Positions 44,549 to 56,909 of a DNA stretch of 64,000 nt are shown here, piece after piece (the first letter of the stretch is position 1; each line of letters begins with the position of its first letter). The stretch is taken from NCBI RefSeq assembly GCF_000165505.1, contig NC_014633.1, forward strand, positions 806,001 to 870,000, given 5' to 3'. The translations under genes and the position numbers were made by a program. The notes below the pieces were generated by a model. The model searched no databases, was not told where the DNA came from, and worked only from the letters and a program-made list of their open reading frames with translations. The DNA comes from Ilyobacter polytropus DSM 2926 (GTDB taxonomy: Bacteria; Fusobacteriota; Fusobacteriia; Fusobacteriales; Fusobacteriaceae).

Positions 44549-44594
44549 TAAAAAAGAGTCCCCTATACTAATAGTAAAGGAGACTCTTTTTTTT
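44549..44594. terminator. Terminator after TRAP unit 1, usable on both strands
   Basis: AAAAAAGAGTC and GACTCTTTTTT pair, with CCCCTATACTAATAG inner bases partly extending the stem; T runs occur on both sides. It lies at the 3' end of the TRAP permease on the minus strand. Confidence 0.8.
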
Positions 44595-46584
44595 AAGCCT
44601 TCGAGGCCTCTTTATTTAATTTTATCCTGCTGATCATAAAGATCGCAACAAACAGAGACACTCCTGTCAAATCTGAATATAAACCTGGTTTTATGAGAAG
44701 CAAAGCTGCTGTAAGTAGCAGAATCCTTTCTAAAAAATTCAGGTCTTTATTGAGATACCCCTCTACTGCGGCGCCTAATGCCATTACCCCTATAGATGCA
44801 GTTATCACTACCAATATAGTCTTTACAAGAGTAGTATCCACTAACAGTAGTGATGGAGAATAGACAAAAACATATGGTACTATAAATCCTGCCAGAGCAA
44901 GTTTTACCGCCTCAAATCCAGTTTTTGAAGGACTTCCACCTGCTATACCTGCCCCTGCAAAGGCTGCCAATGCAACAGGCGGAGTGAGATTGGCCAGCAT
45001 CCCAAAATAGAATACAAACATATGGGATACAAGGTGCGGAACTCCCATTTTATAAAGTGCCGGAGCAGCCATTGTAGCTGTTATTATATAAGCCGGTATT
45101 GATGGTAGACCCATTCCTAGAACTATACAGGCTACCATTGTCAGTACCAAAGTCAAAAACAATTTCCCTTTTCCCAAAAACAGGATGGCCCCTGCAAGTT
45201 TCAGACCAAATCCTGTCTGCGTCGCTACACCTATTATAAGTCCAACTACTGCACAGGACATAGCAACTCCAAGAGCAGTACGTGCTCCACTTTCTAGAGA
45301 ATCGATTATGTCTCCAAAACTCATTCTAGTCTCTTTCTTAAGTGCGCTGGCAACTATAGTAAGAAGTATAGACCAAAATGCAGCATAAATAGGTGTCTTA
45401 CCACTCAAAAGAAAATAAAGCAGACCAAATAGCGGAAGCAAGAGGTGTCCTTTTTCCTTTAAAACTACCCCAGCCTTAGGAAGCTGATCCTTTGGCAGGC
45501 CATTAAGTCCTCTTTTACATGCTCTCAGGTGTATTATTACTATTACCCCTAGATAATATAAAAGTGCTGGAATTACAGCTGATTTTGCTATGGTTATATA
45601 CTTAACTCCCAGATACTCTGCCATGATAAAAGCAGTTGCTCCCATAACAGGAGGTAATATCTGTCCACCGCAAGAAGCTGCAGCCTCTACTCCCCCTGAA
45701 AATTCTTTATCATAACCTATTTTTTTCATAAGTGGTATGGTGAAGGCCCCGGTAGTTACAACGTTGGCTATAGCACTACCATTTATTGACCCTAAGAATC
45801 CACTCGAGATTACTGCGACTTTTGCAGGTCCCCCTTTTCCAGAACCAGCAAGGGCCATGGAAAGATCATTGAAAAACTGTCCCATTCCTGATTTTTGAAG
45901 AAAGGCACCAAATAAAACAAAAAGGAAAATATAAGTAGAGGAAACCCCTATAGCTATACCATATATCCCCTCTGTAGAAAGATACATGTAATCTGCAATA
46001 TCCCTTATGCCGTATCCTCTATGTGCAATAAGACCAGGAAGTCTCGGTCCCAAAAATGCATATAAAAGAAAAATTGTGGCGAGAATTGTTATCTCTTTTC
46101 CGGTTATTCTTCTGGCCGCTTCAAGTACCAAAAGTATTGCCATAATACCAAAGGCGATGTCAATGTCATTTGGCATCCCTGCCCTCATTACCAATGCATT
46201 GTAATTAATAACAATATAGGCTCCGAGACTCAGGGAAAGAGCCGAAAAGCTCCAGTCCAATATTGTCGGCTTATTTTTAGGAGATTTTTTTGTAAATGGA
46301 TAAAGAATAAAAATCAAAGACATTATAACTGATGTATGTACCGCTCTGTGCATTAGAGTAACCAGTGGACCTCTCCATGCTGTGTACAGATGAAAGATTG
46401 ATAAAGCCACTGCCATTATAAATACAATTTTACCAGGTGTGGTTTCTCTTCCAAATTTTCTAAATCTAGCCTCTGTATCAAATTTTTCAAGTAGCTCCTC
46501 ATCGGCAACTTCAGGTTCTACATCACACGTTGACTCGGAACAATTAATTATTTCTTCATCATCTAGAAGTTTTTTATCCTGCAT
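44593..46584 (-). CDS. TRAP transporter fused permease (4TM/12TM), TAXI type, copy 1
   Basis: A 663-residue membrane protein combining the small (DctQ-like) and large (DctM-like) subunits of a TRAP transporter, the form associated with TAXI binding proteins. After a ~55-residue acidic cytoplasmic N terminus come many hydrophobic helices; GSINGSAIANVVTTGAFTIPLMK near residue 265 (given in part), SCGGQILPPVMGATAFIMAEYL and GMGLPSIPAYIITATMAAPAL are conserved. It takes up a carboxylate or amino acid with an ion gradient, probably Na+ in this organism; substrate unknown. Start ATG follows GGAGGTG. It is closely similar to the permease at 48035-50023. Confidence 0.92.
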   Translation of the reverse strand: MQDKKLLDDEEIINCSESTCDVEPEVADEELLEKFDTEARFRKFGRETTPGKIVFIMAVALSIFHLYTAWRGPLVTLMHRAVHTSVIMSLIFILYPFTKKSPKNKPTILDWSFSALSLSLGAYIVINYNALVMRAGMPNDIDIAFGIMAILLVLEAARRITGKEITILATIFLLYAFLGPRLPGLIAHRGYGIRDIADYMYLSTEGIYGIAIGVSSTYIFLFVLFGAFLQKSGMGQFFNDLSMALAGSGKGGPAKVAVISSGFLGSINGSAIANVVTTGAFTIPLMKKIGYDKEFSGGVEAAASCGGQILPPVMGATAFIMAEYLGVKYITIAKSAVIPALLYYLGVIVIIHLRACKRGLNGLPKDQLPKAGVVLKEKGHLLLPLFGLLYFLLSGKTPIYAAFWSILLTIVASALKKETRMSFGDIIDSLESGARTALGVAMSCAVVGLIIGVATQTGFGLKLAGAILFLGKGKLFLTLVLTMVACIVLGMGLPSIPAYIITATMAAPALYKMGVPHLVSHMFVFYFGMLANLTPPVALAAFAGAGIAGGSPSKTGFEAVKLALAGFIVPYVFVYSPSLLLVDTTLVKTILVVITASIGVMALGAAVEGYLNKDLNFLERILLLTAALLLIKPGLYSDLTGVSLFVAIFMISRIKLNKEASKA

Positions 46585-46670
46585 ATAAAATTCACACCTC
46601 CAAAATTAGTCATTTATATATATATATGCGTTGTTAAAGGGCATTATACAATGCCCTTTAACTAGAAATT

Positions 46671-47651
46671 TTATTTATGCTCGTTAAAATATTTTTCTGC
46701 CCCAGGATGAAGTGGTATAGGCATCCCTTTTCTAACTGCTTCAAGCTGTATGCTGTTTGCTGCTGAGTGTGTTTCTTTTAATGCATCTAAATTTTCAAAT
46801 ATAGTCTTTGTTATGTTGTATACTAAGTCATCACTTAGATCTGCTCTTGTTACAAGAAGAGTCTGTACTGCTGCTGTCTCTACATCCTCTTCATTGTCAT
46901 AAGTTCCTGCTGGGATAACTTCTGATGCATAGAAAGGATATTCTTCTGCAAGCTTTTCAACAGTCGCCTTTCTTATAGGTATAATCTTTACATCTTGAGT
47001 TGTTGATAAATCCATTATAGTAGAATTTGGAAGACCTGAAGTAAGGAATGCTGCATCTACAGCTCCGTTTTTCATCTGCTCTACTGCCTCTGCATATGAC
47101 AGATAATCCGCCTTGATATCATCATAAGTGATTCCGTAAGCTTTTAGGATTTGACGTGCATTAACCTCTGTTCCACTTCCTGGAGCACCGACTCCAACTC
47201 TTTTTCCTTTTAAGTCTGAAACTTCTTTAATTCCAGTCTTTTCTACTGTTATTAGTTGAACAAAATTTGGATACAAAGCAGCTATACCTCTTAGGTTTTC
47301 TACCTTACCCTTTTCTTTAAATACTTCTGTTCCTGTATATGCATAGCTAACTACATCATTCATAGCAAAGGCAAGCTCAACTTTTTCAGTTCCCAATAAA
47401 GTTGCATTTACCGCAGAAGCTCCTGTAGATTGTACTGAAGAGTTAACTCCTTCTATCTTCTGATTAAGCTGATTTGATATAGCTCCTCCAAGAGCAAAAT
47501 AAGCCCCTGAACTTCCACCTGTTGCAATAGTTACAAAGGCAGGTCCGGCTGATTTTTCTCCTCCAGCCTCTTCTTTTTTTCCTGAACAACCTGTAAATAA
47601 CCCTAGCACAACTAAAACTAGTACTGCTAAAATACTACCTTTCTTTTTCAT
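46671..47651 (-). CDS. TRAP transporter solute-binding lipoprotein, TAXI family, copy 1
   Basis: A 326-residue binding protein with a lipoprotein signal: hydrophobic stretch and LFTGC with Cys22. ATGGSSGAYFALGGAISNQLN near the mature N terminus (given in part), GVGAPGSGTEVNARQIL near residue 150 and AFLTSGLPNSTIMDLS near residue 200 are TAXI-family landmarks; such proteins bind glutamate, 2-oxoglutarate or other carboxylates. The start is ATG 47651; GGGGGG lies just upstream, so the ORF extension to 47666 is unlikely. It precedes permease copy 1 by 86 nt. Most of it is almost identical to 50106-51086 at DNA level. Confidence 0.92.
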   Translation of the reverse strand: MKKKGSILAVLVLVVLGLFTGCSGKKEEAGGEKSAGPAFVTIATGGSSGAYFALGGAISNQLNQKIEGVNSSVQSTGASAVNATLLGTEKVELAFAMNDVVSYAYTGTEVFKEKGKVENLRGIAALYPNFVQLITVEKTGIKEVSDLKGKRVGVGAPGSGTEVNARQILKAYGITYDDIKADYLSYAEAVEQMKNGAVDAAFLTSGLPNSTIMDLSTTQDVKIIPIRKATVEKLAEEYPFYASEVIPAGTYDNEEDVETAAVQTLLVTRADLSDDLVYNITKTIFENLDALKETHSAANSIQLEAVRKGMPIPLHPGAEKYFNEHK

Positions 47652-47993
47652 TAAATATCCCCCCATTTGTATTTTATTAAAATTGTATTAAAACACTAAA
47701 ATAACAAAAAACTACAAATATATTGTACTAAGTCAAACATTAAATTCCTTTTATATTAAAACATTTTATCTTATTTCACCTAAAAAATTCCCGTTTTTAT
47801 ACACAAGTCTTATTTTAACGTTTTGGATAGTTTTATAATTTAAAAACACAAAATAAATTCAATCAATGCTTTTTAAGTTTTAAATTCATTCAGTGTATAA
47901 TAACATTTTTTAATCTACTTGTAAAATAAAATATCACCGCAAATCCCAATCAAAGTGAGGAAAATAAGTCGCAGTTAAAAAATTTTATAAATA
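47652..47993. other. Intergenic region between the two TRAP units
   Basis: About 340 nt of AT-rich DNA without a credible reading frame. It should contain the promoter of TRAP unit 1 on the minus strand; no convincing -35/-10 pair was found. AACGTTTTG at 47818 and CCGTTTTTA at 47789 are loosely like LytTR half-sites but their spacing is wrong. Confidence 0.5.
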
Positions 47994-48024
47994 AAAAAAT
48001 CCCCTATACCGCAAAGTATAGGGG
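47994..48024 (-). terminator. Terminator after TRAP unit 2
   Basis: Minus strand CCCCTATAC, 6-nt loop, GTATAGGGG, followed by ATTTTTTT. It ends the transcript just after the permease copy 2 stop codon. Confidence 0.93.
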
Positions 48025-48034
48025 AAGAGAGTTT

Positions 48035-50023
48035 TTATGCCTCGGAAACTGCCTTAGCTAAACTAATTTTACTCAATACAAATAGTGTTCCAAATATTAT
48101 TACTCCTGCAATATCAGTATATATTCCAGGTATAATCAACATGAGTGAAGCTGCAAACATTGCCATTCTCTCGCCCATATTCAGATTTTTATTGAGATAT
48201 CCCTCTACTGATGCTCCCATAGCCAAAACTCCCAGAGCGGCTGTAGCAACTACCAGTATAGTCTTGGTAATTGTTGTGTCAATAAGAAGTAGTGAAGGTG
48301 AGTAAACAAAAACATATGGTACTATAAATCCTGCAAGAGCAAGTTTCACTGCCTCAAATCCTGTTTTTGAAGGACTTCCCCCTGCTATACCTGCCCCTGC
48401 AAAGGCTGCCAATGCAACAGGTGGAGTGAGGTTAGCTAGCATACCAAAGTAAAATACAAACATATGAGATACAAGATGTGGTACTCCCATTTTAGCAAGT
48501 GCCGGAGCAGCCATTGTAGCTGTAATTATGTAAGCCGGTATTGATGGTAGACCCATTCCTAGAACTATACAAGCTACCATTGTGAGCATCAAAGTTAATA
48601 GTAATTTTCCTTTCCCTAAGAATAAAATTGCCCCTGCTAATTTTAGTCCAAAACCTGTCTGAGTAGCTACACCTATTATAAGTCCAACTACTGCACAAGA
48701 CATGGCAACTCCAAGTGCTGTACGAGATCCATCTTCAAGGCAGTCTATTATATCCTTGAAACTCATTCTAGTCTCTTTTCTAAGAGAGCTGGCAATTATG
48801 GTAAATATAATAGACCAAAAAGCTGCATAAATTGGTGTTTTACCACTTATTAAGAAATAAAGGAGTCCAAATAACGGCAATAATAGATGTCCTTTCTCTT
48901 TCATCACCAGGCTGGTTTTAGGAAGCTGATCTTTTGGCATACCATTTAGCCCTTTTTTACAGGCTCTTAAATGAATTATTACTATTACTCCCATGTAGTA
49001 TAAAAGTGCAGGAATTATTGCTGCAGTTGCTATCTTGATATATTTCACTCCGAGATACTCTGCCATTATAAATGCAGTTGCACCCATAACAGGAGGTAGT
49101 ATCTGTCCACCGCAAGAAGCTGCCGCCTCTACTGCACCGGCAAATTCCTTGTCATATCCTATTTTTTTCATAAGTGGTATTGTAAATGCCCCTGTTGTAA
49201 CAACATTTGCAATGGCACTACCATTTATTGACCCTAAAAATCCGCTTGAAATTACTGCAACCTTTGCAGGTCCTCCCTTTCCTGATCCTGCGAGAGCCAT
49301 GGAAAGGTCGTTAAAAAATTGTCCCATCCCTGACTTTTGTAAAAACGATCCAAAGAGTACAAAAAGAAATATATAAGTAGAAGAAACCCCTATAGCAATT
49401 CCGTATATTCCCTCTGTTGAAAGGTACATATAATCAGCTATATCTCTTATTCCATATCCTCTGTGTGCTATTAGATTGGGAAGTTTTGATCCAAAAAATG
49501 CATAAAGTAAGAATATACTAGCAAGAATAGCGATCTCTTTTCCTGTTATTCTTCTTCCAGCTTCAAGCACTAATATTATAGCCATAATTCCAAAGGCTAT
49601 ATCAAGGTTATTTGGCATACCTGCTCTCATAACCAAACTATTATAATTTAAAACAATATATCCTGCGAGACTCAGGGACAATCCGGAAAAAACCCAATCC
49701 AGTATAGAGGGCTTTTCTCTTGAGGATTTTTTACTGGCCGGATAAAGAAGATAAACTAAGGACATTATTACAGAAACGTGTACAGATCTGTGTACAAGAG
49801 TAACTAATGGGCCACTCCAAGCGGTATAGAGGTGGAAAATAGACAAAGCTACCGCCACTAAAAATACAATCTTACCAGAAGTGGTCTCTCTACCAAATTT
49901 TCTAAATCTAGCCTCTGTATCAAATTTTTCAAGTAAATTTTCATCAGCTATTTCAGGCTTGATATCACAAGAATAATCCGTACAGTCAATTATTTTTTCT
50001 TCCTTTACTTCATCGTTTTTCAT
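48035..50023 (-). CDS. TRAP transporter fused permease (4TM/12TM), TAXI type, copy 2
   Basis: A 662-residue paralogue of the permease at 44593-46584 with the same domain plan and the same conserved segments (GSINGSAIANVV, SCGGQILPPVMGATAF, GMGLPSIPAYIITATMAAP). Differences concentrate in the acidic N-terminal tail, in loops and in the last helices. At DNA level many third codon positions differ between the two permeases. Start ATG follows GGAGGTG. It follows its binding-protein gene by 82 nt, as in unit 1, and both units end in separate terminators. Confidence 0.92.
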   Translation of the reverse strand: MKNDEVKEEKIIDCTDYSCDIKPEIADENLLEKFDTEARFRKFGRETTSGKIVFLVAVALSIFHLYTAWSGPLVTLVHRSVHVSVIMSLVYLLYPASKKSSREKPSILDWVFSGLSLSLAGYIVLNYNSLVMRAGMPNNLDIAFGIMAIILVLEAGRRITGKEIAILASIFLLYAFFGSKLPNLIAHRGYGIRDIADYMYLSTEGIYGIAIGVSSTYIFLFVLFGSFLQKSGMGQFFNDLSMALAGSGKGGPAKVAVISSGFLGSINGSAIANVVTTGAFTIPLMKKIGYDKEFAGAVEAAASCGGQILPPVMGATAFIMAEYLGVKYIKIATAAIIPALLYYMGVIVIIHLRACKKGLNGMPKDQLPKTSLVMKEKGHLLLPLFGLLYFLISGKTPIYAAFWSIIFTIIASSLRKETRMSFKDIIDCLEDGSRTALGVAMSCAVVGLIIGVATQTGFGLKLAGAILFLGKGKLLLTLMLTMVACIVLGMGLPSIPAYIITATMAAPALAKMGVPHLVSHMFVFYFGMLANLTPPVALAAFAGAGIAGGSPSKTGFEAVKLALAGFIVPYVFVYSPSLLLIDTTITKTILVVATAALGVLAMGASVEGYLNKNLNMGERMAMFAASLMLIIPGIYTDIAGVIIFGTLFVLSKISLAKAVSEA

Positions 50024-50105
50024 TTTAAATTTTACACCTCCAAATTTCTATAAAACAAACAAATATATTTAAGGGTCATTTTACAATGCCCCTTAAATAA
50101 GCTTC

Positions 50106-51086
50106 CTATTTATGCTCGTTAAAATATTTTTCTGCCCCAGGATGAAGTGGTATAGGCATCCCTTTTCTAACTGCTTCAAGCTGTATGCTGTTTGCTGCTG
50201 AGTGTGTTTCTTTTAATGCATCTAAATTTTCAAATATAGTCTTTGTTATGTTGTATACTAAGTCATCACTTAGATCTGCTCTTGTTACAAGAAGAGTCTG
50301 TACTGCTGCCGTCTCTACATCTTCTTCATTGTCATAAGTTCCTGCTGGGATAACTTCTGATGCATAGAAAGGATATTCTTCTGCAAGTTTTTCAACTGAT
50401 TCCTTTCTTATAGGTATAATCTTTACATCTTGAGTTGTTGATAAGTCCATTATAGTAGAATTTGGAAGACCTGAAGTAAGGAATGCTGCATCTACAGCTC
50501 CGTTTTTCATCTGCTCTATTGCCTCTGCATATGACAGATAATCCGCTTTGATATCGTCATAAGTGATTCCATGAGCCTTCAATATTTGACGTGCATTAAC
50601 CTCTGTTCCACTTCCTGGAGCACCGACTCCAACTCTTTTTCCTTTTAAGTCTGAAACTTCTTTAATTCCAGTCTTTTCTACTGTTATTAGTTGAACAAAG
50701 TTTGGATACAAAGCAGCTATACCTCTTAAGGTTTCTACCTTCCCCTTTTCTTTAAATACTTCTGTTCCTGTATATGCATAACTAACTACGTCATTCATAG
50801 CAAAGGCAAGTTCAACTTTTTCAGTTCCCAATAAAGTTGCATTTACTGCAGAAGCTCCTGTAGATTGTACAGATGAGTTGATTCCTTCAACTTTCTGATT
50901 AAGCTGATTTGATATAGCTCCTCCAAGAGCAAAATAAGCCCCTGAACTTCCACCAGTTGCAATAGTTACAAAAACATTTTCAGCTTTTTTACCTTGTGCA
51001 CCATCCTCTTTCTCACCGCTACATCCAGTCATTACCATTAACATAAAAAGAACAAATCCAACTAATACAGAACTTTTATTTCTCAT
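50106..51086 (-). CDS. TRAP transporter solute-binding lipoprotein, TAXI family, copy 2
   Basis: A 326-residue paralogue of the protein at 46671-47651. The signal peptide differs (MRNKSSVLVGFVLFMLMVM) but also ends in a lipobox, MTGC with Cys22; from about residue 40 to the end only a handful of residues differ. The ATG at 51086 follows GGGAGGG; the ORF extension to 51101 is rejected. The near identity means that both proteins should bind the same ligand. It is the first gene of TRAP unit 2, transcribed away from the LytTR regulator end. Confidence 0.92.
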   Translation of the reverse strand: MRNKSSVLVGFVLFMLMVMTGCSGEKEDGAQGKKAENVFVTIATGGSSGAYFALGGAISNQLNQKVEGINSSVQSTGASAVNATLLGTEKVELAFAMNDVVSYAYTGTEVFKEKGKVETLRGIAALYPNFVQLITVEKTGIKEVSDLKGKRVGVGAPGSGTEVNARQILKAHGITYDDIKADYLSYAEAIEQMKNGAVDAAFLTSGLPNSTIMDLSTTQDVKIIPIRKESVEKLAEEYPFYASEVIPAGTYDNEEDVETAAVQTLLVTRADLSDDLVYNITKTIFENLDALKETHSAANSIQLEAVRKGMPIPLHPGAEKYFNEHK

Positions 51087-51206
51087 TAAAAACCCTCCCA
51101 ATCTAATTTTTCTAACTAATAGGATTTTAGTATATTATTTCCGAAATAAGAATATCTTTTATTTATCATACATTCTTAGAAATTAAAATACATTATCGCA
51201 AAATAA

Positions 51207-51229
51207 AATACAGGACTAAGTCCTGTATT
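51207..51229 (-). terminator. Terminator after the LytTR regulator gene
   Basis: AATACAGGAC and GTCCTGTATT form a perfect 10-bp stem with a 3-nt loop; the minus strand continues with a T-rich run. The regulator's stop codon lies at its edge. Confidence 0.75.
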
Positions 51230-51983
51230 AAATTCCAAAAAAATTCTTGAATTTTTTTAAATAATTTCTGCTAACTTGTATATCACAATCTTTCAAGCCT
51301 TTTACTTCTATTTTATATGTATAATTAAACCAGGGTATAATTTCATCTATATAATCTATATTTATTATCGTACTCTTATGTATTCTCATAAACTTATCTT
51401 CTCTTAATCTAGTCTCCAATTCCTTTAAAGAATGACTGCATTCATAAGCAGAATTTAAAGTATGTACCAAAATTACATTTTTTTCTGATTTAATAAAGAT
51501 TATCTTATTTACATCTATTAACACTAACTTATTATTCTTTTGAATACACAATTTTTCAAGAGAAGTATTACTTTCACTTTCAGTATTCTTATCTTTTTCT
51601 CCATTATTAAGATTCTTATTTATTATTTTATCTCTGACCCTATCAATGGTAAGCTTTATTCTGTCTTCTGAAAAAGGCTTTAGTATATAATCTGCCGCGT
51701 TCACTTCAAACCCCTGCACAGCATAATGATCATATGCAGTTGCAAAAACAATCAACGGATGATTTTTATTTTCAGATATTTTTCTAGCAATCAACATCCC
51801 ACTATTGTTTTGCAGGTTTATATCCATAAATACACAGTCTGGTTTTAGTTCCTCTATCTTTTCTAGAGCTTCGTCACCGTCTCCACTCTCACCACATATT
51901 TCGACATCATTATATTTTTCTAAAAAATATCTGATCTCATTTCTGATATATTTTTCGTCATCTACGATAAAAATTCTAATCAT
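51228..51983 (-). CDS. LytTR-family response regulator
   Basis: A 251-residue two-component regulator. The receiver domain (1 to about 120) has IVDDE at residues 6-10, the phospho-acceptor Asp54 in FMDINL, ATAYD and the lysine in YILKPF near residue 103. After a ~25-residue charged linker comes a LytTR DNA-binding domain (IIFIKSEKNVILVHTL, KFMRIHKSTIINIDYI, DIQVSRNYLKKFK). Members regulate by binding paired sites. The likely partner is the LytS-type kinase at 55233-56909, on the same strand beyond the korDABC operon. Start ATG follows AGGAGGAGG. Confidence 0.93.
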   Translation of the reverse strand: MIRIFIVDDEKYIRNEIRYFLEKYNDVEICGESGDGDEALEKIEELKPDCVFMDINLQNNSGMLIARKISENKNHPLIVFATAYDHYAVQGFEVNAADYILKPFSEDRIKLTIDRVRDKIINKNLNNGEKDKNTESESNTSLEKLCIQKNNKLVLIDVNKIIFIKSEKNVILVHTLNSAYECSHSLKELETRLREDKFMRIHKSTIINIDYIDEIIPWFNYTYKIEVKGLKDCDIQVSRNYLKKFKNFFGI

Positions 51984-52487: not shown

Positions 52488-52682
52488 GTGGAAGAAAAAG
52501 TACTTGTTGTAAAAAAAGGGTTGTGTAAGGGCTGTGAAATCTGTGTTGAATTCTGTCCAAAGGACGTCTTAGACATGAAAGATGGAAAAGTCAATGTTAA
52601 AAATATCAGTGCATGCATACAGTGTAATATGTGTGGTAAACTATGTCCTGATTATGCTATCGGTATTAGGAGGAATGGATAA
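52488..52682 (+). CDS. korD: 2-oxoacid:ferredoxin oxidoreductase, ferredoxin-like subunit
   Basis: A 64-residue 2x[4Fe-4S] ferredoxin: CKGCEICVEFCP near residue 13 and CIQCNMCGKLCP near residue 43 each have the CX2CX2CX3CP pattern. In this enzyme class it passes electrons from the thiamine centre to free ferredoxin. The start is GTG, 7 nt after AAGGAGG. Its stop overlaps the next start as TAATG, so it is coupled to the alpha subunit. Confidence 0.92.
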   Translation: MEEKVLVVKKGLCKGCEICVEFCPKDVLDMKDGKVNVKNISACIQCNMCGKLCPDYAIGIRRNG

Positions 52683-53815
52683 TGAGCAAAATTAAGTTTA
52701 TGCAAGGAAACGAAGCGTGTGTTGAAGGTGCAATCGCTGCTGGAATGAAATTTTTTGCAGGATATCCTATCACACCGTCAACTGAAGTTATGGAAAAATC
52801 TGCTGAAATGCTTCCTAAAGTTGAAGGAAAATTTATTCAGATGGAAGATGAGATTGCCGGTATAGCTGCTGCAATCGGTGGATCAATTGCAGGATCAAAG
52901 TCTATGACTGCAACAAGCGGACCTGGATTCTCACTTAAAATGGAAAACCTAGGATATGCAGTAATCGCCGAGATTCCTTTAGTTGTAGTAAACGTTCAGA
53001 GAAACGGGCCAAGTACAGGTCTTCCTACATCACCATCTCAAGGAGATATGATGCAGGCTAAATGGGGAACTCACGGTGACCATCCTGTAATTGCTCTTTC
53101 ACCATCTACAGTGCAAGAGTGCTATTCTCTTACTGCTAGAGCCTTCAACCTTGCTGAAAAATATAGAATGCCTGTTCTTTTCATGCTAGATGAGGTTGTT
53201 GGACATATGAGAGAAAAAGTGGTTTTAGACACGACTCTTATTGAGGAAATAGTAGACAGAGCGAAGCCTGCAAAAGACGATGCTTCTTATCTTCCTTACG
53301 GAGTTTCAGGAGACGAACTTGTTCCTAAAATGTCTTCATTTGGGGAGGGACACAGATACCATATCACAGGTCTTGTGCATGACGAGACAGGTTTCCCTAC
53401 AAACAGTACAAAAGTAGCAGATAAGTTAATGACAAGATTAATGGATAAAGTTGAAAAAAATAAAGATGACATTATTCAGTATGAAGAGTACATGATGGAA
53501 GATGCTGAATATGTTATATTCTCTTATGGAAGTACAGCCAGATCTTCAAAGCAGGCGGTTATGGACCTTAGAGAAAAAGGTATAAAAGCAGGACTATTCA
53601 GAGCCATTACAATCTGGCCTTTCCCTGAGGATAGAATCAGAGAATTAGCTCAAAAATCAAAAGGAATTCTTGTGGCTGAGATGAACCTTGGACAGATGGT
53701 ACTTGAGGTTGAGCGTATTGCCAACGGAAGCTGTCCTGTAAAATTAATGGGTAAAGGTAACGGAGAGTTCATAAGCCCTGCTGAAATAGTTGAAAAATTT
53801 GGGGAGGTAATGTAA
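52682..53815 (+). CDS. korA: 2-oxoacid:ferredoxin oxidoreductase, alpha subunit
   Basis: A 377-residue subunit with the pyruvate-ferredoxin oxidoreductase N-terminal domain (GNEACVEGAIAAGMKFFAGY and PITPSTEVME, EDEIAGIAAAIGGSIAG, TATSGPGFSLKMENLGYA, GLPTSPSQGDMMQAKWG) followed by the domain II pyrimidine-binding region. The four-gene DABC layout and the alpha sequence fit 2-oxoglutarate (or branched-chain 2-oxoacid) oxidoreductases rather than single-chain pyruvate enzymes. It makes acyl-CoA, CO2 and reduced ferredoxin, or runs in reverse for reductive carboxylation. The exact substrate is not settled by sequence. Confidence 0.88.
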   Translation: MSKIKFMQGNEACVEGAIAAGMKFFAGYPITPSTEVMEKSAEMLPKVEGKFIQMEDEIAGIAAAIGGSIAGSKSMTATSGPGFSLKMENLGYAVIAEIPLVVVNVQRNGPSTGLPTSPSQGDMMQAKWGTHGDHPVIALSPSTVQECYSLTARAFNLAEKYRMPVLFMLDEVVGHMREKVVLDTTLIEEIVDRAKPAKDDASYLPYGVSGDELVPKMSSFGEGHRYHITGLVHDETGFPTNSTKVADKLMTRLMDKVEKNKDDIIQYEEYMMEDAEYVIFSYGSTARSSKQAVMDLREKGIKAGLFRAITIWPFPEDRIRELAQKSKGILVAEMNLGQMVLEVERIANGSCPVKLMGKGNGEFISPAEIVEKFGEVM

Positions 53816-53817
53816 TA

Positions 53818-54642
53818 ATGGATACTTGTAAAAATAAAAGCTATTATAGAGAAGATAAATTACCTCACATCTGGTGTCCTGGATGTGCTCACGGTATAGT
53901 AATGCACGCACTGGTTAACGCCATAGAAAATATAGGTCTAAATAAAGACGACGTATGTGTAGTATCTGGAATAGGATGTTCATCTAGAGCTCCTGGATAT
54001 TTAGACTTCAACACTTTACATACTACTCACGGAAGATCTCTTGCATTTGCTACAGGGATAAAGATGGCAAAACCTGGTATGAAAGTAATCGCACTAGGAG
54101 GAGACGGTGACTTCACTGCAATCGGAGGTAACCACTTAATCCATGCTGCAAGAAGAAACATCGACATCGCAGCAATTATTTTTAACAACAACATCTACGG
54201 AATGACAGGAGGTCAATTCTCTCCTACTACTCCTGTTGGTGATTATGCTACTACGACTCCAACTGGAAATATCGATCCGAACTTTGATATAGTAAAGCTT
54301 GTAGACGGTGCCGGAGCTAGTTATGTTGCAAGAGGTACTGCATATCACTTTGATGCTCTTGTAAAATTATTTGAAAATGCCATCAACCACAAAGGATTCT
54401 CTCTTGTAGAGGCAGTAAGTACTTGTCCTACAAGTTACGGAAGAAAAAACAAAGGATTCAAGGGAAATCCTGCAGCTATGCTTAAGTATATGAGAGACAA
54501 CACTGTTCCTGTGGCTGCTGTTGCAAAACTTCCAAAGGAAAAAGTAGAAGGAAAGCTTGTTATCGGAGAATTCAAAAATGAGCAGAGACCTGAGTACACA
54601 GAAGAATATCAAAAAATCATAGATAAAGTAAGAGGGGTGTAA
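53818..54642 (+). CDS. korB: 2-oxoacid:ferredoxin oxidoreductase, beta (thiamine-binding) subunit
   Basis: A 274-residue thiamine pyrophosphate subunit: IWCPGCAHGIV near residue 18, SGIGCSSRAPGY near residue 49, and the TPP motif ALGGDGDFTAIGG near residue 92 ending in FNNNIYGMTGGQ near residue 121. STCPTSYGRKN follows near residue 200. It starts 2 nt after korA and ends 3 nt before korC. Confidence 0.92.
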   Translation: MDTCKNKSYYREDKLPHIWCPGCAHGIVMHALVNAIENIGLNKDDVCVVSGIGCSSRAPGYLDFNTLHTTHGRSLAFATGIKMAKPGMKVIALGGDGDFTAIGGNHLIHAARRNIDIAAIIFNNNIYGMTGGQFSPTTPVGDYATTTPTGNIDPNFDIVKLVDGAGASYVARGTAYHFDALVKLFENAINHKGFSLVEAVSTCPTSYGRKNKGFKGNPAAMLKYMRDNTVPVAAVAKLPKEKVEGKLVIGEFKNEQRPEYTEEYQKIIDKVRGV

Positions 54643-54645
54643 GAA

Positions 54646-55167
54646 ATGGCAAAGGAAATCAGATTAAGCGGTTCAGGTGGACAGGGTCTTATTTTGGCAG
54701 GTATCATCCTTGCAGAAGCTGCCTTACATCAGGGTAAAGTAGCTGTTCAGTCACAATCTTACGGTCCTGAGGCAAGAGGAGGAGCCAGTAAGTCAGAGGT
54801 AATCATAAGTGATACTGAGATTCTTTACCCGAAGGTAAATCATTCTGATATATTTCTTTCACTGACTCAGAAATCTTTTGATACATATTCAAGTGGAAAC
54901 AAAGAAAATTGTATCATAGTAATCGATTCAAGTGTTAAGACTCCAGAAGGTTTAAATGTAGTAAAACTTCCTATTCTTGAAACAGCTAAGGAAAAAGTAG
55001 GAAACTCAATAGTTGCAAACATTGTATCTCTAGGTGCCATACAGGCAGCTACAAATATTGTAGACAGAGATGTTCTAGAAGAGACTATCCTTGGAAGAGT
55101 TCCTGCCCATGTAAAAGAATTAAATAAAAAGGCATTCCAGTCTGGTATTGATTTAGTTAAATTATAA
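54646..55167 (+). CDS. korC: 2-oxoacid:ferredoxin oxidoreductase, gamma subunit
   Basis: A 173-residue gamma domain: EIRLSGSGGQGLILAGIILAEAA at the N terminus (given in part), SYGPEARGGASKSEVIIS near residue 38 and SLGAIQAATNIV near residue 130, all typical of the POR/KOR gamma family. Start ATG follows GGGGTG. It ends the operon before a strong terminator shared with the convergent kinase gene. Confidence 0.92.
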   Translation: MAKEIRLSGSGGQGLILAGIILAEAALHQGKVAVQSQSYGPEARGGASKSEVIISDTEILYPKVNHSDIFLSLTQKSFDTYSSGNKENCIIVIDSSVKTPEGLNVVKLPILETAKEKVGNSIVANIVSLGAIQAATNIVDRDVLEETILGRVPAHVKELNKKAFQSGIDLVKL

Positions 55168-55232: not shown

Positions 55233-56909
55233 TTACTCTTCTGCCACTGGAATACTTAAAGATACTGTAGTACCTTTATCTTTTTCACTAAATACCTGGA
55301 GACCATATTCTTCTCCAAAAATACCCTTTAATCTCATATCTACATTTTTAAACCCAACCGAGTCCCCTGTGTTTAAATCTCCATATAATAAGTCATCTAA
55401 TTTATTTTTATCGATTCCCACGCCATCATCAGAAATTTCTAAATTTACAACATTAGAATTTTTATGCCCAAACACTTTAACTATCCCGCCATTTTTTTTA
55501 GGAAGTATACCATGTTTAATTGCATTTTCTACAATCGGTTGGAGCGTCAAAGGTGGCAGAAAACAATTTAAATTTTCAGGCACATCATAAATCACTTTAA
55601 GCTTTTCTTCAAATCTAGCCATTTCTATATATACATATGATTTTACGTGATTAATTTCAGTCTGAAGATCAACCATATCTTTTCTTAAATTAAGGGATCT
55701 TCTGTAAAAGTCACTCAAATGTATTATTAAATTTCTGGATTTTTCGACATCAATTCTACACAGAGATCCTATCACTGTGAGAGAATTAAATAAAAAATGA
55801 GGATTTATCTGTGCCTGAAGAATTTTTAATTCTGATTGCTCCAATAATTTCGAATCATTTTCAAGCTTGGTTAGAGTCAATTGAGTTGAAAATAATTTGG
55901 CTAATCCATTTCCAATTTCTAAATCTACAGAACTCATAGACCTAGATAACTTTTTATATAATTCAAGAATTCCAATAACTTTTCCATTTTCTTTTAGAGG
56001 CAACATAAGAAGAGTATATGGTGTTTTTTTCTCGTTTTTTATATCTATGTATACATCAACAACAAGAGGTTTACCACTCTCAGTTACATAAGCGATATTA
56101 GTAAGTTCTTCTTTGATCTCATCTTTTATTCCAAAACCAGTATGAGCTACTAAAACTCCAGACTCCATTATCCTAACTATATCAAATTCAGTCATTTCGT
56201 ATATGACTTCAGATACCTTTTTTACATTGTCAGAACATAAACCATTTTTTAAAAACGGTAAAGCTTTATCAACTGTTTTAAGAGTGAGATTTGATTGATA
56301 GGCTATCATTTTTTCCTGTTCTTTAAATATATTTTCAATTATCATAAACAAAAGTGCCAGTCCAACTGAATTAATGATTATCATAGGCAGCCAGACATTA
56401 CTGACAAATTCCAGAGCTTTTTCAAAGGGTTTAGAAATCAAAAGAACAGAGACTTTTCTCATTAGTTCTGCTATTGTTCCAGTCAGTGCTGCATAGACCC
56501 ATTTATTGTTTCTGTTACGTATAAAAACACCCATCACACCTGCCATAAGACCTTCAAATATAGTAGATACAGCACAGGCAAGACCTGTAAACTCCCCACT
56601 TTTTATAAGACCTCTGTGTACACCAGCAATCACACCAGATAACAGACCTACGAAGGGACCCCCTATAAGTCCACCTGTAGCCACACCTATAATCCGTGTA
56701 TTTATAAGTCCGCCATAATATTCAAAACTAAAATACGTTCCCACTATACCAAAAATTCCAAAAACAATTGACAATAATATTTTATCAGATAAATTGATAT
56801 TTTTTTTGGCAACTAAACTTCTAAAGGGTTTTAATCTCGATAATACAAAGGCAAATATAAATAAAATCCCTAATTTATTTCCAAGCAAAGTTATTAAATC
56901 CAGCTCCAT
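55233..56909 (-). CDS. LytS-type sensor histidine kinase
   Basis: A 558-residue membrane kinase. The first ~205 residues hold about six hydrophobic helices of the 5TM-5TMR_LYT type (NTRIIGVATGGLIGGPFVGL near residue 72). A GAF-like domain follows (about 215-345), then a HisKA_7TM-like dimerisation segment with the phospho-accepting QINPHFLFNSL near residue 372 and a HATPase domain (LQPIVENAIKHG near residue 452, ISDDGVGID near residue 490). Known relatives sense envelope state or external carboxylates/pyruvate. The expected partner is the LytTR regulator at 51228-51983; kinase and regulator flank korDABC instead of being adjacent. Start ATG follows AAAGGGG. Confidence 0.92.
   Translation of the reverse strand: MELDLITLLGNKLGILFIFAFVLSRLKPFRSLVAKKNINLSDKILLSIVFGIFGIVGTYFSFEYYGGLINTRIIGVATGGLIGGPFVGLLSGVIAGVHRGLIKSGEFTGLACAVSTIFEGLMAGVMGVFIRNRNNKWVYAALTGTIAELMRKVSVLLISKPFEKALEFVSNVWLPMIIINSVGLALLFMIIENIFKEQEKMIAYQSNLTLKTVDKALPFLKNGLCSDNVKKVSEVIYEMTEFDIVRIMESGVLVAHTGFGIKDEIKEELTNIAYVTESGKPLVVDVYIDIKNEKKTPYTLLMLPLKENGKVIGILELYKKLSRSMSSVDLEIGNGLAKLFSTQLTLTKLENDSKLLEQSELKILQAQINPHFLFNSLTVIGSLCRIDVEKSRNLIIHLSDFYRRSLNLRKDMVDLQTEINHVKSYVYIEMARFEEKLKVIYDVPENLNCFLPPLTLQPIVENAIKHGILPKKNGGIVKVFGHKNSNVVNLEISDDGVGIDKNKLDDLLYGDLNTGDSVGFKNVDMRLKGIFGEEYGLQVFSEKDKGTTVSLSIPVAEE

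Follow-up and report, generated by a model that had tools for sequence, protein, structure and literature searches.

Concerted evolution of duplicated genes is already known in prokaryotes. The survey of this phenomenon (PMC6053082) treats 26 genes, such as tuf, psbA, amoA-E and mtrA, and its text attributes long-lasting concerted evolution mainly to recurrent gene conversion; as presented there, the genes have high identity over nearly their full length and in at least five species. In the Salmonella account cited here (PMC5485169), conversion between tufA and tufB, which lie 762 kb apart in inverse orientation, runs to the bounds of the genes and is blocked by large heterology. For binding-protein genes, we found nothing on the subject of gene conversion in the open-licence literature.

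Here we describe two tandem transporter units of Ilyobacter polytropus, an anaerobic fusobacterium, each with a gene for a solute-binding protein (S1, S2) and a gene for a permease (P1, P2). As in VcGluP-VcGluQM and Thermus TtGluBP, the binding protein is of the TAXI family and is joined by a single fused permease. Like the genes of the survey (PMC6053082), with copies assigned by synteny, the S paralogs are in their 3' half more alike than the orthologs, at silent sites too. They differ from the survey genes in that the effect is confined to the mature receptor gene of a two-gene unit, and to three genomes of one genus; neither of the survey's two tables names a solute transporter, and its main text does not contain the word Fusobacteria. 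The limits of conversion agree with those of tufA/tufB in being set by gene ends or heterology, but S1 and S2 are direct repeats 3.4 kb apart (compare PMC5485169). The process is ordinary concerted evolution, but its site, the receptor half of a two-gene transporter, is unusual.

Layout and origin of the tandem units

The window, meaning the whole 64,000-nt stretch that we analysed, belongs to chromosome II of I. polytropus (positions 806001-870000). The published genome of strain CuHbu1 has 3,132,314 bases, divided among chromosome I (2,046,464), chromosome II (961,624) and a plasmid (124,226 bp) (PMC3035301). On the minus strand the reading order is LytTR response regulator, S2, P2, a terminator-like hairpin, S1 and P1, with a gap of 368 nt from P2 to S1 (Table 1). 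Both units are TRAP-TAXI transporters, a TIGR02122 protein lying beside a single TIGR02123 fused permease, with all matches well above the curated cut-offs.

Table 1. Features of the two TRAP-TAXI units and their surroundings (window coordinates)
Feature	Position	Strand	Evidence or remark
P1, fused TRAP permease, unit 1	44593-46584	-	TIGR02123 TRAP_fused, 781 bits (cut-off 321)
S1, TAXI-type solute-binding protein, unit 1	46671-47666	-	TIGR02122 TRAP_TAXI, 395 bits (cut-off 84); PF16868
P2, fused TRAP permease, unit 2	48035-50023	-	TIGR02123, 777 bits
S2, TAXI-type solute-binding protein, unit 2	50106-51101	-	TIGR02122, 396 bits
LytTR response regulator, upstream of S2	51228-51983	-	PF00072, PF04397
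LytS-type histidine kinase (5TMR-LYT)	55233-56909	-	PF07694, PF06580
Terminator-like hairpin and T run after P2, dividing the units	48000-48025	-	
Hairpin in S1-P1 spacer	46633-46662	-	13-bp perfect stem; spacer unconverted, 3' conversion limit
Hairpin in S2-P2 spacer	50066-50099	-	Counterpart of S1-P1 hairpin
Identical tract, S1	46672-46874	-	Counterpart of 50107-50309
Identical tract, S2	50107-50309	-	Counterpart of 46672-46874
Concertedly evolving zone of S1, mature protein (codons 46-331)	46671-47531	-	S2 partner 50106-50966
S1 signal peptide, lipobox-like motif and linker, diverged	47532-47666	-	Groups by copy (tree of columns 1-135, 100/100)

The true start of S1 is likely at 47651 and that of S2 at 51086, the latter being the ATG at codon 6 of the longest ORF, behind GGGAGGG. 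The motifs FTGC and MTGC, which were read by eye in S1 and S2, we take to be lipobox-like. Upstream of S2, the stretch 51102-51227 (minus strand) appears near-invariant by eye across the three genomes compared below and is possibly a strongly constrained control region. The LytS-type kinase is presumed to be the partner of the LytTR regulator, by analogy with three clostridial loci where the two are adjacent; in the window, the genes for the alpha, beta and gamma subunits of a 2-oxoacid:ferredoxin oxidoreductase sit between them, preceded by a small ferredoxin-like ORF identified by eye (52488-55167, plus strand). No ORF of at least 100 aa lies between 44130 and 44593. A third and distant TAXI-permease pair, with about 36% identity, is found elsewhere on chromosome II of I. 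polytropus (L054:5202-8443).

In a search of 61 genomes of the family, matches above 50% identity were confined to three genomes of this genus, the window's own and two relatives (G001 and G002), and our comparison covers these three. In both relatives the tandem is present in synteny, its genes following the regulator in the order seen here. In G002, the region between the regulator-like gene and P1 (L053:3846-7282) holds ORFs that by eye resemble a polysaccharide flippase, a UDP-galactopyranose mutase and a glycosyltransferase. In G002, S1 (L053:9536-10533) has a frameshift near codon 58, either as a pseudogene or through a sequencing error, and a shorter upstream region than S1 has in the window's genome and G001.

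Four clostridial 21-kb loci (L043-L046) each have one S and one P above 80 bits, in the order kinase, regulator, S, P in L043-L045, whereas L046 has no kinase or regulator match above 80 bits. In a permease tree with seven Bacillota sequences (LG+G4; in two of these, internal stops were translated as X), all P1 and P2 copies from the three genomes fall in a single clade (100/100). Because P1 and P2 are sisters with respect to the Bacillota permeases, the pattern fits a single tandem duplication that arose in this lineage and predates the split of the genus, and both the synteny and the unconverted flanks make the duplication older than the split of the species. In our reading, a cassette that also occurs in Clostridia (LytS kinase, LytTR regulator, S and P) underwent tandem duplication of its S-P part before the three genomes separated.

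Divergence of receptor and permease genes within and between genomes

The preliminary description of this DNA had reported a mismatch-free stretch at the 3' ends of S1 and S2, near identity as far as the signal-peptide region, and permeases differing at many silent positions. All three observations hold, and the end at 51086 given there coincides with the likely start of S2. The identical tract is exact: at an offset of 3435 it runs for 203 nt, beginning with the first base of codon 265 and ending two bases into the stop codon, so that the last 67 codons of the mature genes have zero mismatches. The bases on either side of it differ, at 46671 (stop codon, position 3) and at 46875 (codon 264, position 3). 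The chance of 203 identical sites at the tract's mean orthologous rate (0.090 per site) is 4.5e-9, and we take this tract as the most recently converted part of S. The remainder of the mature gene (46875-47531) has 33 mismatches, against 50 within the 135 nt of the signal and linker region (codons 1-45). DNA identity over the whole gene is 91.6% for S1/S2 and 77.8% for P1/P2. The permeases have 284 synonymous differences on 480.3 synonymous sites (dS about 1.15-1.165), whereas the S pair gives a dS of 0.206 over the entire gene and 0.144 over the mature part, so that windowed dS is clearly unequal in the two genes.

Comparison with the related species, which had been proposed as a check, shows the same in all three genomes: paralog dS of mature S (0.144 in the window's genome, 0.306 in G001 and 0.187 in G002) is lower than every orthologous value (0.38-0.59), and the permeases show the opposite, with paralog dS of 1.15-1.25 against 0.33-0.60 between orthologs. 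The effect is strongest in S codons 179-331, where paralog dS is 0.083, 0.128 and 0.050 (genomes in the same order) against 0.41-0.57 between orthologs. For codons 46-178 the corresponding values are 0.214, 0.554 and 0.367 against 0.30-0.60; those of G001 and G002 fall inside the orthologous range and only the window's pair stands out. In codons 1-45 the paralogs are distant (dS 0.85-2.7) and the orthologs close (0.22-0.55). DNA identity over the whole of S is accordingly variable: in the window's genome the paralogs are the closest (91.6% versus 89.6 and 90.0%), in G001 orthologs are closer (91.6% versus 88.0% for the paralogs), and G002 is mixed (paralogs 90.2%, S1 orthologs 91.6 and 90.0%). 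Paralogs are thus closer than orthologs at S columns 541-998 in all three genomes, while for the whole gene this is not so in G001 and only partly so in G002.

We classified a variable site as genome-type, when the two copies of one genome share a base that none of the other genomes' four copies has, or copy-type, when the site separates copy 1 from copy 2. The 236 variable sites of S comprise 63 genome-type, 34 copy-type and 139 of neither type, and the 639 of the permease 19, 187 and 433, respectively. Copy-type sites of S are concentrated in the first 126 columns (29 of 34); the other five, at 213-215 and 521-531, are two small remnants, and beyond column 531 there are 42 genome-type sites and no copy-type site. 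The S-P spacers, with gapped columns left out, have 19 copy-type and no genome-type sites. The longest agreeing run of variable sites in S was reached in 2, 0 and 1 of 10,000 shuffles for the three genomes, and that in P in 333, 2864 and 5975; the longest exact aligned paralog match measures 203, 196 and 162 nt for S, against 43, 41 and 29 nt for P.

The DNA-level grouping switches inside the S gene. The last 458 columns (541-998) group by genome, with supports of 100/99, 100/99 and 88/93, the last for the G002 pair, and copy 1 as a clade is rejected (p-AU 1e-43). For columns 136-540 only the window's pair is grouped (99/99); copy 1 as a clade is weakly rejected (p-AU 0.033), and the other two within-genome pairs are not rejected (p-AU 0.27 and 0.31). 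The trees of columns 1-135 and of the whole permease group by copy (100/100), and every within-genome pair is rejected. The whole-S protein tree also groups by copy (S1 99/97, S2 85/95; five rows, the frameshifted S1 of G002 being left out), a result that we attribute to the signal region, given how little the mature proteins differ. Two codons are copy-specific in all three genomes and may be unconverted remnants: codon 177 specifies Tyr in copy 1 but His in copy 2, and codon 71 is Ile/Val. Specialised docking as the meaning of such residues was rejected, as both states of codon 177 occur among nine outgroup proteins (six His, three Tyr).

Divergence of the permease is itself uneven. At codons 481-575 or thereabouts, paralog dS is 0.38-0.53 (0.38 in the window's genome), about the level between species, and cross-species cross-copy dS is 0.40-0.52, near the orthologous 0.15-0.59. 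The tree of this part groups by copy with only 83/89, and within-genome pairs are not rejected in the window's genome and G001 (p-AU 0.17 and 0.11) but are rejected in G002 (0.014). No other part of the permease has the look of conversion. It is possible that these codons carry an older event of this kind, which would probably predate the species split, as the cross-species values suggest and because the tree still leans to grouping by copy.

Conversion of the receptor core and its alternatives

Since columns 541-998 of S group by genome, the flanks group by copy and the duplication precedes the split, we conclude from these sequences that the 3' part of S is homogenised by gene conversion separately in three lineages; in the middle of the gene, homogenisation is clear only in the window's genome. 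The limits are sharp, at the signal-peptide region on the 5' side and at the stop codon on the 3' side. We consider it highly probable that a tandem duplication before the split was followed by repeated, lineage-wise conversion of the S core while the flanks evolved independently. The earlier proposal of gene conversion in the binding-protein genes is therefore supported, as a recurrent process rather than one recent event. Homologous recombination, presumably of the RecA type, between direct repeats 3.4 kb apart would copy mature S between the units, repeatedly and in each lineage separately, above all in the 3' half of the gene. Homology may feed itself in this process: the conserved S core is similar, recombines, and so stays similar, with heterology bounding both ends. 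The permeases, the signal-peptide regions and the S-P spacers would have drifted below the similarity that recombination needs and would now be independent.

Selection could be part of the explanation, if two identical ligand-binding proteins are favoured, for dosage or for one specificity, so that converted copies are kept and conversion is adaptive. The low dN between mature S paralogs (0.011-0.015) is in favour of this, as is the retention of both permeases under purifying selection in three genomes, though a crossover in S would be expected to delete a unit. However, dN/dS of the S paralogs (0.08, 0.05 and 0.07) is near that of the P paralogs (about 0.1), so that constraint on S is not visibly much stronger, the S1 of G002 is frameshifted, and homology-bounded conversion accounts for the pattern with no need of selection. 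We regard adaptive conversion as possible but doubtful; selection for dosage or one ligand alone cannot yield identity at silent sites, and it could at most account for why converted copies were kept. A more elaborate proposal, which we rate as improbable, is that recombination acts as a lock at the level of the module, keeping one receptor sequence for two transporters that are free to specialise their channels, export signals and promoters, with the spacer hairpin serving as an element that sets the expression ratio and as a fixed 3' boundary or start point of conversion.

The hairpin behind the S stop codon might provoke breaks and so start recombination, with the greatest homogeneity at the 3' end as a result. 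All six S-P spacers fold as a stem-loop (-14.5 to -18.6 kcal/mol in the first 45 nt). When the 13-pair stem of the S1-P1 spacer is projected onto the six spacers, pairing is kept in 92.2% of cells, a level attained by 1 of 500 shuffles. Double-sided changes occur at four pairs (26 of 500), and the covariation score is reached in none of 500 shuffles, while the count of pair types does not stand out (378 of 500); with only six related sequences, compensatory change is no more than suggestive. Paralog mismatches also fall toward the 3' end in each of the three genomes (rank correlation -0.09, -0.13 and -0.16; orthologs -0.07, p 0.055). This trend is weak, though, and would equally follow from lower homology at the 5' edge, and stable S-P hairpins are present in one-unit clostridial loci as well (e.g. 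L045, L046 and L047), where there is no second copy, so that we consider initiation at the hairpin unlikely. Because no T run follows the stem, a full terminator is less likely, and the hairpin is more likely a stabiliser of the S message or an attenuator of P.

Could the copies have stayed alike since the duplication without any conversion, S being highly expressed and codon-biased, with slowly changing silent sites? Cells often make more binding protein than permease, and a hairpin follows S in six of six units, which is as this explanation would have it. Yet slow silent change is no explanation, because orthologous dS is as high in mature S as in P, and the neighbouring genes (korABC 0.21-0.35, hisF 0.24-0.79) do not mark S as a slow gene, its values exceeding those of korABC though not two of the three for hisF. 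In addition, the shared bases are lineage-specific, and columns 541-998 group by genome. The paralogs therefore evolve in concert at synonymous sites without a low substitution rate as the cause, and we rejected codon bias or slow silent change as highly improbable, since paralog dS of mature S is below every orthologous value in all three genomes. No more credible is an artefact of assembly, in which near-identical S copies were merged; assemblers can collapse repeats, but the copies retain 33 differences in the mature part and 50 in the signal region, the pattern recurs in two further genomes with bases of their own, and the reported coverage is 91.0x in pyrosequence and 124.8x in Illumina data (PMC3035301). 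If each lineage had recently duplicated S, or the unit, on its own, paralogs would likewise be closer than orthologs, but we dismiss this as the least probable reading of all, as the same tandem stands in synteny in three genomes, the permease, signal-peptide region and spacer around the S core group by copy, and it is implausible that three lineages each gained just the S core at one and the same position.

Ligand, regulation and significance

In glutamate-type TAXI proteins a Gln and a Glu contact the amino group of the ligand (Q93 and E125 of VcGluP; contacts as given in PMC11574862). With the VcGluP residues placed only by way of the Thermus chain, this Gln and Glu were found in neither S1 nor S2, where the glutamate contacts of VcGluP and TtGluBP are replaced by Met and Asn. 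Because of these replacements, the ligand of S1 and S2 is probably other than glutamate. The best matches of the neighbouring oxidoreductase are to 2-oxoacid/2-oxoglutarate models, only the general alpha-subunit model passing its cut-off, and the account cited above (PMC11574862) places a TAXI transporter for 2-oxoglutarate in Proteus mirabilis; a 2-oxoacid such as 2-oxoglutarate would be our guess. Both units probably import the same ligand, and the likeliest use of the duplication lies in amount or in separate regulation. The regions upstream of S1 and S2 have no clear mutual similarity by eye, which points to separate regulation of the units. Orthologous dN of the permeases (0.014-0.024, against the dS given above) indicates that both are under purifying selection in the three genomes even though a unit could be lost by recombination between the S copies, and for this reason both units seem useful.

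This locus offers a compact natural example of opposite fates after the joint duplication of two genes, the receptor being homogenised and the channel diverging, and it permits direct tests of what limits gene conversion in bacteria. It also implies that the ages of duplicated transporters, when estimated from their binding proteins alone, could be badly wrong.
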